The translations under genes and the position numbers were made by a program. Positions 2,249-58,866 of a stretch of DNA of 64,000 bases are shown here, one piece after another. Source of the DNA: Oscillatoria sp. FACHB-1407 (GTDB lineage: Bacteria > Cyanobacteriota > Cyanobacteriia > Elainellales > Elainellaceae); NCBI RefSeq assembly GCF_014697545.1, contig NZ_JACJSA010000030.1, forward strand, positions 1 through 64,000, written 5' to 3'. Position 1 is the stretch's first letter, and every line of letters starts with the position of its first letter. The notes under the pieces are model-generated. The model did not search any database. It saw only the letters and a program-made list of their open reading frames with translations, and had not been told where the DNA came from.

Positions 2249-2536
2249 AGGGGGATCTCGCTCTAGGCGAGGTGACTTTATTCAGCCACAGGATCGTTAT
2301 GGTAGCAGAATTTTGTTGCAGTTAAACAAGACATCGCGCATTTTATGTAAAAAAAGTGGAAATGGGGAATAGACCCTATCCCCTTCTGCCGTTTGCTATA
2401 ATTCCCAAAATTTTTAATGTCATTATTTCTAGAGTTTGGGTTGAAGGGATAGCATAAGGAAAGGAGTGCGTGGCGATCGCACCGAGGATGAGTCACGCGG
2501 GTTCTGGTTCGCTCTAGCAGAGCCTCAATTGATGGT
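2249..2536. other. Intergenic stretch without a supported gene
   Basis: About 290 bases between tRNA-Ser and the J-domain gene. A TATAAT at 2397-2402 could be a -10 box for the plus-strand gene, but no convincing -35 is visible. A minus-strand reading frame here has no recognisable content. Confidence 0.5.
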
Positions 2537-54942: not shown

Positions 54943-56208
54943 GTGAGTCCAGAAACGCTCGTCCAACTTCCAAACTTGACTGCTCCCACATCGCCCTATG
55001 ACTCGGCAGAATTTGACGCCCATGTCATGGCAACCTATGCCCGTTTTCCATTGACTTTAGAGCGAGGCTTGGGGTGTCGAGTTTGGGATGCTGAAGGGCG
55101 AGAATACCTGGATTTTGTCGCTGGCATCGCCACTTGCACCCTCGGTCATGCTCACCCTGCCATGATTGAGGCAGTCACCCAGCAAATTCAAAAACTGCAC
55201 CACGTTTCTAATCTCTACTACATTCGAGAGCAGGGAGATCTGGCGAAGTGGCTGATTGAACACTCCTGCGCCGATCGCGCCTTCTTCTGTAACTCTGGGG
55301 CGGAGGCAAACGAGGGAGCCATCAAATTAGCGCGAAAGTACGCTCACACCGTTCTCAAGATTGAGAGTCCGGTGATTTTGACGGCTCATGCCAGCTTCCA
55401 CGGTCGCACTCTGGCAACGATCACCGCAACGGGGCAACCGAAATATCAAAAGAACTTTGATCCGTTGATGCCGGGGTTCCACTACGTCCCCTACAACGAC
55501 ATTACAGCCATTGAAGAGGCGATCGCCCTATTGGATACCCCCAGTCGTCACGTTGCCGCGATCATGCTGGAGCCATTGCAGGGTGAAGGGGGTGTGCGTC
55601 CGGGGGATGTGGCTTACTTCCAACGGGTGCGTCAGATCTGTGATGAAAAAGGCATCCTGCTGATTCTGGATGAAGTTCAAGTGGGAATGGGACGTACGGG
55701 ACACCAGTGGGGGTATGAGAATTTGGGGATTGAACCCGATATCTTCACCTCTGCGAAAGGATTAGGTGGTGGCATTCCCATTGGGGCGATGCTGTGCAAA
55801 TCCTTCTGTGATGTATTTCAACCGGGAGATCACGCCAGCACCTTTGGCGGCAATCCCTTTGCCTGCGGTGTTGCGCTCAAAGTTTGCCAAACCCTGGAGC
55901 AAGACAACCTGTTAGAGAATGTGCGACAACGGGGTGAGCAGTTGAGAAGTGGACTCAAGGCGATCGCTCAGAAGTATCCCAACCTGATCACGGAAGTGCG
56001 GGGATGGGGTCTGATCAACGGATTGGTTTTGAATTCTGACATCGAACTCACGTCTAGCCAGATCGTGAAAGCAGCAATGGATGACGGCTTATTGCTCGTG
56101 CCTGCGGGTCCAAAGGTCGTGCGCTTTGTGCCTCCGTTGATTGTCAACGAAGCCGAAATCGACGGGGCATTGCAGGCGATCGAACGGGCATTGGCGGCAT
56201 TAGGGTAG
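54943..56208 (+). CDS. argD: Acetylornithine aminotransferase
   Basis: 421 residues, class III PLP aminotransferase. GAGIATCTLGHAHP-type N-terminal (FVAGIATCTLGHAHP), EPLQGEGGVRPGD, LILDEVQVGMGRTG and K272 (TSAKGLGGGIPIGAM) as PLP-lysine. Uses glutamate to convert N-acetylglutamate semialdehyde to acetylornithine. Starts with GTG; arginine and also polyamine pathways use it. Followed by long STRR DNA. Confidence 0.93.
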   Translation: MSPETLVQLPNLTAPTSPYDSAEFDAHVMATYARFPLTLERGLGCRVWDAEGREYLDFVAGIATCTLGHAHPAMIEAVTQQIQKLHHVSNLYYIREQGDLAKWLIEHSCADRAFFCNSGAEANEGAIKLARKYAHTVLKIESPVILTAHASFHGRTLATITATGQPKYQKNFDPLMPGFHYVPYNDITAIEEAIALLDTPSRHVAAIMLEPLQGEGGVRPGDVAYFQRVRQICDEKGILLILDEVQVGMGRTGHQWGYENLGIEPDIFTSAKGLGGGIPIGAMLCKSFCDVFQPGDHASTFGGNPFACGVALKVCQTLEQDNLLENVRQRGEQLRSGLKAIAQKYPNLITEVRGWGLINGLVLNSDIELTSSQIVKAAMDDGLLLVPAGPKVVRFVPPLIVNEAEIDGALQAIERALAALG

Positions 56209-56510
56209 TCAGTAGTCAGTAGTTGATAGTCAATGGTCAGTAGTCAGTAGTTGATAGTCAATGGTCAATAGTTGATAGTCAATAGTTGATAGTCAATGGT
56301 CAATAGTTGATAGTCAATAGTTGATGGTCAATAGTTGATGGTCAACAGTCAATAGTTGATGGTCAACAGTCAATAGTTGATAGTTGATAGTCAATAGTTG
56401 AGGTTTGTAGTCGATGAACCACTAACCATTGACCACTGACCACTGACTATTGACTATTGACCACTAACCACTGACCACTGACTATTGACCATTAACCATT
56501 AACCATTAAC
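56209..56510. repeat. Long STRR array with inverted halves
   Basis: 56217-56400 repeats TAGTCAGTAGTTGATAGTCA-like units in one direction; 56420-56508 has the reverse-complement units (ACCATTGACCACTGACTATT). RNA from either strand can form a long hairpin. It separates converging argD and the LuxR gene and may serve as their terminator. Confidence 0.8.
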
Positions 56511-57161
56511 TCACAACAAAATCAACCCCTGACGTGCCCCCAGCGTCACAGCTTCAGTGCGACTAGAGGCACCCAGTTTATTGAAAATAGAGCTGATGTG
56601 AAATTTAACCGTGTGTTCTGAAATCGTTAGCCGACGGGCGATCGCCTTATTGCCCAGCCCTTCGGCTAACATGCTCAGCACCTCAATTTCACGGGGAGTC
56701 AGGGGTTGATTCGTCGCTGAGGGAAGTGATGATCGCGGTGAGGTTGGAGTCATCGGCAGTGACCCCAAAAATTCTGGATGCAGGACGATTAACCCTGTGG
56801 CTACAGCCTCGATCGCGGTGGTGATCTCATCTGCGGTTGCTTCGGCGGGCAAAATGCCCTGGATGCCCGATTGCAGCAGATCGCTCACCCAGGAACTCTG
56901 GACGTTATCCACCAGAACGACGATCGCTGGCAGAGCCATCTCGCGTTCTAAAGCTGGCAGAGCCGTTAGGGTTTCATCCTCCTGCAACTCTAGCTCCATC
57001 AGCACGACATCCGGTTGCAGCGCATCCAACTGCTCAGCCAGATCACGATGTGTCACACTCCCCACTATTGTTAACACCGCACTTTGCGCCAACACTGTCT
57101 CTAGACCCACACGGGCGATCGCTGAGTTCGCTGCAATCAAAACCCTCACTGTCGAGATCAT
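56511..57161 (-). CDS. LuxR/NarL-type regulator with pseudo-receiver
   Basis: 216 residues. Receiver-like domain (about 5-125) and a GerE-type HTH (about 153-212, LTPREIEVLSMLAEGLGNKAIARRL ... SEHTVKFH). The receiver lacks key residues: the usual DD pair is A11-N12, the phospho-Asp is Glu56 (LMELELQ), and the conserved Lys is lost (LPAEA). It cannot be phosphorylated in the normal way; Glu may mimic the active state. Its start overlaps the stop of the protease gene by 4 bp (ATGA), so it is made with two trypsin-like proteins. Confidence 0.88.
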   Translation of the reverse strand: MISTVRVLIAANSAIARVGLETVLAQSAVLTIVGSVTHRDLAEQLDALQPDVVLMELELQEDETLTALPALEREMALPAIVVLVDNVQSSWVSDLLQSGIQGILPAEATADEITTAIEAVATGLIVLHPEFLGSLPMTPTSPRSSLPSATNQPLTPREIEVLSMLAEGLGNKAIARRLTISEHTVKFHISSIFNKLGASSRTEAVTLGARQGLILL

Positions 57162-57766
57162 GCAACATCAACCTGGGCTGAGTTCACTAAAACTGTCTTC
57201 AGAAATTGATTTACGGCGTGACTGGGAATGGCGATCGCCAACCCATTGATAATCATACTGTTGATGCCAATCACCTCACCCTGTGCGTTTGCCAACGGAC
57301 CACCTGAATTGCCGGGTGCCAACCGAACATCCGCTCGAATCCAGCCATAGTGATCTGAAGGGCAAATCGTGTGAACAATTCCCGTGGTTAATGCCCCACT
57401 CACGCCCCAGGGGTTGCCGACCGCAAGCACCAATTCCCCCACCCGCAAATGCTCAGAGTCCCCAATAACAACAGGGGTGACGGCCGCCTCAACGGTGAGA
57501 GCCGCGAGATCGCGTTCTGGGTCACGAGCAACGACCGCTGCTTCCAAACTACGACCATCCCACAACTCAACAACGGCAGTTGATCCTCGGATGACATGGG
57601 CATTGGTGATGATCGTGCTGGACTGATTGAGCGGTGAGACGTGCCAGATCACACCCGACCCTGCACCCCATCGTCGTCCCCGCACTTGCACCGTTGAGCA
57701 ACGAAGGGATTCTGTGACTTCACTCAACGCCTGAGCGATCGCCTGATGGTTAGCACTGAGGTTCAT
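57158..57766 (-). CDS. Trypsin-like (S1C) serine protease without PDZ
   Basis: 202 residues, cytosolic (no signal peptide). Chymotrypsin fold of the HtrA/Deg kind; triad H57 (TNAHVI), D86 (RDLAAL), S154 (PGNSGGPLAN) is complete. There is no PDZ domain, and it is about half the length of HtrA. It overlaps both neighbours by 4 bp, in the order pseudo-protease, protease, regulator. A regulatory cleavage role towards the neighbours is inference. Confidence 0.88.
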   Translation of the reverse strand: MNLSANHQAIAQALSEVTESLRCSTVQVRGRRWGAGSGVIWHVSPLNQSSTIITNAHVIRGSTAVVELWDGRSLEAAVVARDPERDLAALTVEAAVTPVVIGDSEHLRVGELVLAVGNPWGVSGALTTGIVHTICPSDHYGWIRADVRLAPGNSGGPLANAQGEVIGINSMIINGLAIAIPSHAVNQFLKTVLVNSAQVDVA

Positions 57767-58695
57767 CGCGCCTCCTTCAGGGGACGCTCGCCCACGGTAA
57801 TGGTGATTTCGGTTAACGTCCCTCCCCGAACAATTTGAGCCGTCAGGGGTTTGCCGACGCGATCGGGGTCAAGCATGGTGTGCACATCACGGACATCGCG
57901 GATTGGAGTTTGGTCTAACGCGACCAAAATATCGCCAATCAACACACCTGCGCGATCGGCAGGGGCATCGGGTTCAACGCTGACCACAATCACACCCCCG
58001 TCGTGGGACAAGCCCAGAGTCTCTTGCAGGGTTTTGGGCAATTGAACGGGTTGCATTCCCAAGCCCAGATATCCGCGTGCAATCCGTCCCTTTTGCAAAA
58101 GCTGGTTGACGACGCGATCAATCGTGCTGGCAGGAATCGTCAGAATGGCTCCACGCGGACCCGCTGTATTAATGCCAATGATTTCTCCTTGAACGGTGAC
58201 AAGGGGACTGCCCGCAAAGCCGGGGTAGGGTGTGATGTCGGGGCGAATGAACTGGTCGATCTGTCCACCATGCCACGATCGCCAGGTTCCACTCAGGGCA
58301 CTGACCACCCCCATACAGGCACTGGTGTTGCCTTCATTAGAGCGGGCAATCGCCAACACGATATGTCCCACTTTCAGAGAGGCTGCATCTGCCAGTTCCG
58401 CTGTGGGCAGATTGGTTTCCTGAATTTGCAGGATGGCTAGATCGGTGCCGCTATCGCGTGCTACAAGCTGTGCCGGAAGCATGCGCCCATCGGATAGCGT
58501 CACAGTAATGTCGTCTTCTCGCTTGACGGTGTGATCGGCAGTTACCACATAGCCCGATCGCCAGTGGATGCCGCTAGATGCCATGCGGTGTCGGGCATTG
58601 ACCGCAACTACGACTGGAGCAGCATGGGCGATCGCCTCCGCCAATCCATTTGAAAACGCCAATAAGGCACTGGATGATTCAGTTGTAAGGGGCAT
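57763..58695 (-). CDS. HtrA-like pseudo-protease with PDZ domain
   Basis: 310 residues from ATG 58695 (AGGAGA 7 bases upstream decides it). Trypsin-like domain (about 25-200) and PDZ (about 205-300, GYLGLGMQPVQL; VSVEPDAPADRAGVLIGDILVAL). H55 (TADH) and D85 (GTDLAIL) are present, but the Ser motif reads GFAGSPLV, so the catalytic Ser is Ala161. A nearby Ser163 is in a different place in the motif. It is probably not a protease but a binding partner. No signal peptide. First gene of the operon. Confidence 0.86.
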   Translation of the reverse strand: MPLTTESSSALLAFSNGLAEAIAHAAPVVVAVNARHRMASSGIHWRSGYVVTADHTVKREDDITVTLSDGRMLPAQLVARDSGTDLAILQIQETNLPTAELADAASLKVGHIVLAIARSNEGNTSACMGVVSALSGTWRSWHGGQIDQFIRPDITPYPGFAGSPLVTVQGEIIGINTAGPRGAILTIPASTIDRVVNQLLQKGRIARGYLGLGMQPVQLPKTLQETLGLSHDGGVIVVSVEPDAPADRAGVLIGDILVALDQTPIRDVRDVHTMLDPDRVGKPLTAQIVRGGTLTEITITVGERPLKEAR

Positions 58696-58820
58696 GTTTG
58701 TTCTCCTGACGCTTTCATTGCCGGAAACCATGCGATTTCCTTACTTTTAGAATGACAATTGGTCAGGAGGTTCAACATCAGAGAAATGGGCAGATCCCAT
58801 CCCGGAAAAATGGCTAGGAG

Positions 58821-58866
58821 AAATAACGTGTAGGGGCGCGATGCATCGCGCCCCTACACGTTATTT
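58821..58866. repeat. 46-bp perfect palindrome touching a stop codon
   Basis: Arms of 23 bp (AAATAACGTGTAGGGGCGCGATG and its exact reverse complement, written 5'-3' from 58821) meet without a loop at 58843/58844. The right part contains the stop codon of the ferredoxin gene (58861-58863, minus strand). On the minus strand the stem is followed by a short T-rich stretch, so it may also terminate transcription. The TAGGGGCG core is shared with 26280-26307. Confidence 0.9.

Follow-up and report, generated by a model that had tools for sequence, protein, structure and literature searches.

A cyanobacterial operon of HtrA-like proteins and a pseudo-receiver regulator: a candidate phosphorylation-independent circuit for the control of cytosolic proteolysis

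How could a regulator of the NarL/FixJ type be switched when its receiver domain lacks the residues used for phosphorylation, and why would it share an operon with two HtrA-like proteins, one of which has lost its catalytic serine? Both questions are raised by three minus-strand open reading frames (ORFs), named here genes 1, 2 and 3, in a stretch of 64,000 nucleotides of Oscillatoria sp. FACHB-1407 (contig NZ_JACJSA010000030.1, hereafter the window). An initial annotation of this DNA had described three genes with 4-bp overlaps between each neighbouring pair, namely (i) an HtrA-like protein with a PDZ domain and Ser changed to Ala, (ii) an HtrA-like protease with the triad H57/D86/S154 and no PDZ and (iii) a regulator whose receiver shows DD changed to AN, Glu56 and no Lys, followed by a helix-turn-helix; the ORF listing, Pfam and alignments agree with this layout at every point. 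We propose, with about an even chance of being right, that the operon controls HtrA-type proteolysis in the cytosol through a circuit that does not depend on phosphorylation and has genes 1 and 3 as its constant pair. Such kinase-free control of a protease appears to be undescribed, and no account of this system was found in the open-licence PMC literature, as judged by titles and the opening of abstracts.

The conservation of the operon was followed in 388 cyanobacterial genomes of the class, 65 of which gave a gene 1 match at 1e-50. Two of them (G071 and G093) were left out as holding ordinary HtrAs only, since in the tree the best match of each (L168 and L169) falls together with an ordinary HtrA of the window's genome; the remaining 63 genomes and Chlorogloeopsis fritschii PCC 6912 (L013) gave the 64 gene 1 loci studied here. 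A further contig scan gave 59 loci, from which L011–L013 were read for the operon, the remainder being at most 40% identical; the genomes known by name are Oculatella LEGE 06141, Microcoleus FACHB-1515 and C. fritschii PCC 6912. In 62 of the 64 loci, gene 3 comes next among the family genes on the same strand after gene 1, so that the two genes cluster beyond chance. The cluster, whose co-occurrence across cyanobacteria the initial annotation had suggested as a check, is conserved. As for the two exceptions, the contig of L153 ends first (a second contig of the same genome has a gene 3 at its end), and in L161 a deletion has fused the remainder of the operon. Gene 2 is present in 41 of the 64 loci, and 22 loci are two-gene operons of genes 1 and 3 (L161 is not counted). 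Gene 1 and the following gene mostly overlap or almost touch; gaps of 106–456 bp follow gene 1 in eight loci and one of 120 bp in the incomplete locus L156, with short frames of 30–113 codons inside the gap in L122, L123 and L126. The junction between genes 2 and 3 is a 4-bp overlap, exactly, in 33/40 cases.

The linkage also emerged from the other side. Indeed, an independent search with gene 3 found 57 of the 388 genomes at 1e-30, all of them in the gene 1 list except G099, which holds broken pieces of genes 1 and 3, and G289, whose match lies at a contig edge. The commonest flanking gene family was seen in just 6/64 loci, which argues that genes 1–3 move as a unit. By the same count no conserved kinase neighbour appeared, no search aimed at kinases having been made; in L013, a response regulator and a kinase-like ORF (labels from reading the ORFs) lie upstream of the operon. 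In a phylum sample of 194 genomes, the six matches were all inside the class, the number of the 194 outside the class not being seen.

The catalytic triad of gene 1 is broken in 36 of the 64 loci, complete in 27 and unreadable in one (L156). Note that ‘broken’ means at least one residue replaced, so three Ser to Thr changes and one Asp to Asn change (with Ser kept) might retain some activity. The Ser position reads S 32, A 14, L 10, T 3, G 2 and D, F and V once each, and the Asn of the usual GNSGG motif (position 172) was found in 0/64 copies (F 36, L 13, G 7, S 6, I 2). The gene 1 tree requires at least seven switches between the complete and the broken state, and these losses are independent of gene 2: gene 1 is complete in 19, broken in 21 and unreadable in one of the three-gene operons, and broken in 15/22 of the two-gene operons. 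The label of pseudo-protease given by the initial annotation therefore suits the window and those 36 loci, and not the 27 complete ones. Unlike the triad, the carboxylate loop of the PDZ domain (G-Y-L-G-x-G) is invariant or nearly so in 62 gene 1 sequences. Moreover, the ratio of nonsynonymous to synonymous substitution rates (dN/dS) was 0.06–0.26 in nine close broken-triad pairs, several of which share a lineage, 0.06–0.22 in five complete pairs and 0.14 in one mixed pair; at the level of sequence, these values demonstrate purifying selection on broken gene 1 copies in the pairs tested. A pseudogene reading of gene 1 is weakened by the same low ratios, with the same proviso that several of the nine pairs come from one lineage. 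Compared with the features of the HtrA/Deg family (MEROPS S1C), the trypsin-like fold is found in genes 1 and 2, His-Asp-Ser is absent from gene 1 of the window and present in gene 2, and the C-terminal PDZ is present in gene 1 and absent from gene 2 of the window.

The regulator encoded by gene 3 has lost its phosphorylation pocket throughout the family. In the window, A11, N12, Glu56 and Ala106 replace the two acids, the Asp and the Lys of receivers; among relatives, an acid at position 11 and a full pocket were each found in 0/61 readable copies, position 56 is Asp in 14/61 and Glu in 30, and position 106 is Lys in 3/62, all with a conserved GerE helix-turn-helix across the family. As a control, the D/E-D, D, T/S, K set is kept in 19/20 near-full-length NarL-type paralogues of the window's genome, among the matches listed, which indicates that pocket loss is specific to gene 3. 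This protein thus combines receiver homology with the loss of key residues, as in pseudo-receivers and aspartate-less regulators (ALRs). A route that does without histidine-kinase phosphotransfer, suggested in the initial annotation, is very likely, given that the first pocket position is never acidic and the pocket never full in the readable gene 3 copies. The same annotation had made its model depend on a conserved cluster, on relatives of gene 1 lacking a normal GNSGG and on receivers lacking the normal Asp; all three apply to most loci, yet the Asp is there in the 14 gene 3 copies just mentioned. Another NarL-type paralogue of the window's genome (L264), which has D-P where the acidic pair would stand and Asn for the phospho-Asp, is possibly a second pseudo-receiver, to judge from these residues.

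Gene 2, when present, keeps an intact triad (41/41 copies, including that of the window), with Asn before the Ser in 28/41. Its lack of a PDZ, correctly noted for the window, is shared by only about 5/41 copies, the window's among them (L136 has an uncertain start). A quick tree, which carries a long-branch warning, puts the gene 1 and gene 2 sequences into two clades of their own (support 100), distinct from eight ordinary HtrAs. Two candidate patterns were set aside. A reciprocal loss of the gene 2 PDZ and the gene 1 triad (4/5 short gene 2 copies stand beside a broken gene 1) is not claimed because gene 1 breakage is common anyway. A relocation of gene 2 elsewhere in the two-gene genomes was rejected, since the best matches in the 22 genomes searched were long ordinary HtrA frames; the search, run with five positive controls, is good and not absolute, one control (G158, 1.7e-33) lying near the best ordinary match (4.8e-30).

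Signal peptides were judged by simple hydropathy alone, with the start codons of relatives picked by script. By this measure, gene 2 of the window has no hydrophobic stretch within its first 60 residues (best value 0.52), and the best value of gene 1 (1.52) belongs to a stretch from about residue 30 of its longer reading, inside the conserved domain; in both gene 1 copies checked (window and L149), the hydrophobic stretch adjoins or falls inside that domain. Seven of 63 gene 1 copies reach 1.6–1.83 and overlap the low end of signal-bearing HtrA paralogues (n = 4, 1.75–2.55). The absence of signal peptides claimed earlier fits these values for genes 1 and 2 of the window and is less clear for these seven relatives, and the proteins of both genes look cytosolic by these predictions.

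What, then, could gene 3 act upon? A conserved promoter element, new relative to the initial annotation, precedes most of these operons and consists of CCTAGCCATTTTTCYAGG, mostly 6–7 bp, CTNCCCATTTYTCYGATG, about 19 bp and then GGCATNCT; the window copy spans 58776–58818. Among 45 representative upstream regions, word pairs recurred in as many as 21, versus at most 8 in three shuffled sets. A model built from 16 loci of the window's family gave 42/46 other loci a score higher than that of any of 920 shuffles, a held-out test that covers the weights only, as the motif layout was chosen after viewing all loci. The four misses are L107 and L114, which carry the element further upstream, and L164 and L167, which show at most a site II-like piece. 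Only 1/453 control stretches exceeded the best shuffle value, and we take it as the true L125 site because the score is identical.

In addition, genome-wide searches returned few sites elsewhere. A strict two-site pattern matched in 14/388 genomes, one match each, 12 of them at this operon, and the reversed pattern gave 0; the two others lie before a 58-residue gene 1 stump (G124) and before an ordinary intact HtrA without a signal-like start (G152). Under stricter filters, a profile search returned 58 matches at E ≤5e-7 in 56 genomes: 54 gene 1 loci (including the broken G099 and a split contig of G018), two lost operons (G124 and G358) and two positions (L211 and L111:4130-4212) before an HtrA gene of that same ordinary type in G152 and G268, genomes whose operons have no gene 2, an arrangement that may go back to one ancestral event. 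Note that the recovery of operon sites by the profile was expected because most were in the training set, and that the result is the scarcity of strong matches elsewhere. No operator was seen before the other copies of the G152-type HtrA examined (L002 of the window's genome, L163, L168, L169 and L170), nor, above a low score, between gene 1 and the gene that follows it. Weak profile matches (E 1e-5 to 0.05) were many, and G189, G160 and G273 were examined: the G160 match precedes a different gene, and no gene 1–3 match was found around the pair in G273. These searches establish that the promoter element is almost confined to this operon in the genomes searched.

On these grounds, gene 3 would be a pseudo-receiver transcription factor acting on the tandem operator before its own operon; the role of an activator is the most likely one. 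With CATNCT as the -10 element, the two sites would be centred near -42 (site II) and -66 (site I), which suits an activator. Two sites at such distances, with hardly any variation in spacing, resemble those of class II activation. Gene 1 is most readily understood as the PDZ-bearing partner or sensor of gene 3, because these two genes form the constant pair and catalysis is dispensable: its product would be a dedicated partner of HtrA fold whose PDZ probably detects the exposed C-termini of proteins and in this way retains or frees gene 3, presumably by direct contact. Gene 2, where present, would be the protease made in response, and another cytosolic HtrA would take this place in two genomes. 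In its fullest form, this proposal has an HtrA-fold PDZ protein, with or without catalysis, replacing the histidine kinase and the phosphate as direct sensor and allosteric partner of a pseudo-receiver factor, so as to tune cytosolic HtrA proteolysis via one dedicated tandem operator; we hold this form tentatively, as somewhat short of an even chance.

Several observations count against this proposal. Gene 1 retains His-Asp-Ser in 27/64 loci and may be active there. The C-terminus of gene 3 was tried as a PDZ ligand (it ends in Leu, Ile or Phe in 60/61 copies), yet the Leu end is not specific, being similarly placed in 9/20 paralogues, and for this reason it is not used as evidence. L158–L160 and L162 barely exceed shuffled sequence, L164 and L167 have no two-site copy, the strict pattern recovers only 12/63 operon genomes and the profile has no match at E ≤5e-7 in 10/63. 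The two lost operons keep the operator without gene 3, to which it is assigned through linkage only. Site I has 23 near-matches in the window's genome (against 13 for the reversed control), with one full two-site operator, that of the operon itself, so the circuit may control only itself. An activator-only promoter is unproven, because -35 matches are weak but slightly above shuffled sequence: the best match averages 2.66 of 6 versus 2.35, with 2 of 6 in 22/47 regions, 3 of 6 in 16/47 and 4 of 6 in 8/47. Some of these points would fit a reading, in our view quite unlikely, in which gene 3 represses its own operon as a homeostatic brake that gene 1 relieves or reinforces, the HtrA proteins being merely targets. 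Site II does overlap the -35 place, these hexamers are slightly better than shuffled ones and the operator hardly occurs outside its own promoter, but a strong -35 consensus is missing and the site spacing resembles that of class II activators.

The initial annotation had put forward another order of events, in which the gene 1 pseudo-protease controls or scaffolds gene 2, which then acts on gene 3 or its partner. In concrete terms, gene 1 would activate or scaffold gene 2, in the manner of MamO and MamE or in a mixed trimer, and gene 2 would cleave gene 3 or its partner. The triad of gene 2 kept in all 41 copies, its 4-bp overlap with gene 3 in 33/40 and the complementarity seen in the window (a PDZ without Ser in gene 1, Ser without a PDZ in gene 2) all speak for it, and MamO is a published precedent (PMC4794232, in the passages considered). 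As a general rule it fails, however, on the 22 operons that have no gene 2, in whose genomes the best gene 2-like matches are long ordinary HtrA frames and 15 of which carry a broken gene 1, and on triad breakage that does not depend on gene 2 (21/41 with it, one more being unreadable, and 15/22 without it). Since those 22 operons keep genes 1 and 3, such a chain is not the common core; we regard it as unlikely overall, although a protease acting on the regulator may occur in the three-gene operons. Lastly, the cluster could simply be decaying, with gene 1 and the receiver eroding and the linkage left as inherited inertia, an idea prompted by the widely varying triad states, the fossil promoters or fragments in G124, G358, G099 and G189 and the fusion in L161. 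It is highly improbable given that broken pairs (0.06–0.26) have dN/dS values like those of complete ones (0.06–0.22), that the PDZ loop, the helix-turn-helix and the operator are highly conserved, and that the unit stays together as its neighbours change.

How does such a circuit compare with known systems? DegS is a periplasmic protein that cleaves an anti-sigma factor in the DegS-RseA-sigma E route. There, as proposed here, the PDZ of an HtrA protein serves as a stress sensor feeding a transcription factor, but the proteins of our operon look cytosolic and gene 1 often cannot cleave. PDZ ligands activate DegS, and the HtrA family permits 0–3 PDZ domains, according to the parts of PMC3640471 considered. 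In magnetotactic bacteria, a dead HtrA can be required for an active one (PMC4794232): as in the 41/64 loci that pair gene 1 with gene 2, 21 of them with a broken gene 1, a degenerate HtrA-fold protein stands beside an active HtrA and the catalytic site of the first is dispensable. MamO and MamE differ in serving magnetosome formation and in the TauE-like transporter domain of MamO, which Pfam does not find here, and the portions of that paper at hand name no transcription regulator. Deg5 and Deg8 of Arabidopsis also pair a PDZ-less with a PDZ-bearing HtrA (PMC3640471) and were described as the only Degs then known to form hetero-oligomers (PMC4877387); they belong to the thylakoid lumen, the excerpts considered name no regulator gene alongside them, and in the window it is the PDZ-bearing member that has the broken triad. 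Nostoc punctiforme and Anabaena variabilis have Deg proteins described as inactive in proteolysis and perhaps neo-functionalised (PMC4877387), which may belong to the same family as gene 1; ‘response regulator’ and ‘LuxR’ occur 0 times in the available text of that paper.

Pseudo-receivers and aspartate-less regulators share with gene 3 a receiver fold without phosphorylation chemistry (PMC12632262, PMC4395418). In the available text of these two papers, ‘protease’ occurs 0 times in the former and 6 times in the latter, where the instances displayed are purification reagents. A 2025 review calls the activation of bacterial pseudo-receivers a mystery, and their switching is presented as an open question (PMC12632262, in the portion considered); this operon makes it testable at the bench because here the regulator comes with a gene partner that stays constant, with a defined operator candidate and with a probable output. 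If our proposal is true, it would describe a cytosolic HtrA-based circuit that needs no phosphorylation to sense damaged proteins and, in many species, no catalysis by the sensor. The changes of catalytic state beside the same regulator, at least seven in number, would then amount to a natural experiment in how an enzyme becomes a signalling protein.

Table 1. Features of the operon and its upstream region in the window; binding by gene 3 and the promoter role are putative.
Feature	Position	Strand	Basis
-10-like hexamer CATTCT, 21 bp after site II	58749..58754	(-)	motif alignment; putative promoter role
Operator site I, CCTAGCCATTTTTCCGGG (family consensus CCTAGCCATTTTTCYAGG)	58801..58818	(-)	motif search, alignment; gene 3 binding inferred
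Operator site II, CTGCCCATTTCTCTGATG, 7 bp after site I	58776..58793	(-)	motif alignment; gene 3 binding inferred
AGGAG ribosome-binding site 5′ of the gene 1 start at 58695	58703..58707	(-)	read from sequence
Gene 1, HtrA-like, one PDZ, catalytic Ser replaced by Ala	57763..58695	(-)	ORFs, Pfam, alignment
Gene 2, HtrA-like protease, triad H57/D86/S154 intact, without PDZ	57158..57766	(-)	ORFs, Pfam, alignment
Gene 3, NarL/FixJ-type regulator, pseudo-receiver (A11, N12, E56, A106), intact GerE helix-turn-helix	56511..57161	(-)	ORFs, Pfam, alignment

Gene 1 has an alternative longer ORF (57763-58731) that begins at an upstream ATG, from which its residues H67, D97 and A173 are counted; the ATG at 58695, which is also the end coordinate of the initial annotation, is the likelier start because AGGAG precedes it and the N-termini of relatives agree. 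Pfam finds Trypsin_2 and PDZ in gene 1, Trypsin_2 only in gene 2 and GerE (79.8 bits) in gene 3, whose Response_reg match is slightly under the cut-off (29.2 vs 30.2 bits). Genes 1 and 2 are alignable in sequence with DegP, DegQ and HhoA chains and score far under the curated cut-offs of the NCBIfam equivalogs HhoA/HhoB/HtrA, DegS, DegP and DegQ.

Some further observations concern remnants of the operon and its surroundings. In L161 (5003-5833), an in-frame deletion, probably recent, joins the gene 1 protease domain to a part of the gene 3 helix-turn-helix that has no first helix, and the operator is kept. A whole or partial operator remains in L205, L242 and L243, where the operon is lost or cut to a stump, and tandem CTACCCATTTTTCTGA repeats stand before an unrelated gene in L244 (~2488-2534, minus strand), from a genome without a gene 1 match. 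In the window, a perfect 28-bp palindrome, GTAGGGGCGCGATGCATCGCGCCCCTAC, lies directly upstream of the operator (58830-58857) as a single copy and is a candidate terminator or dispersed repeat. On the other side of the operon, dense tandem repeat arrays based on 7 bp, with units such as TAGTCAATAGTTGA, fill 56205-56510 between gene 3 and a gene that we take, from reading its ORF, to be aminotransferase-like.

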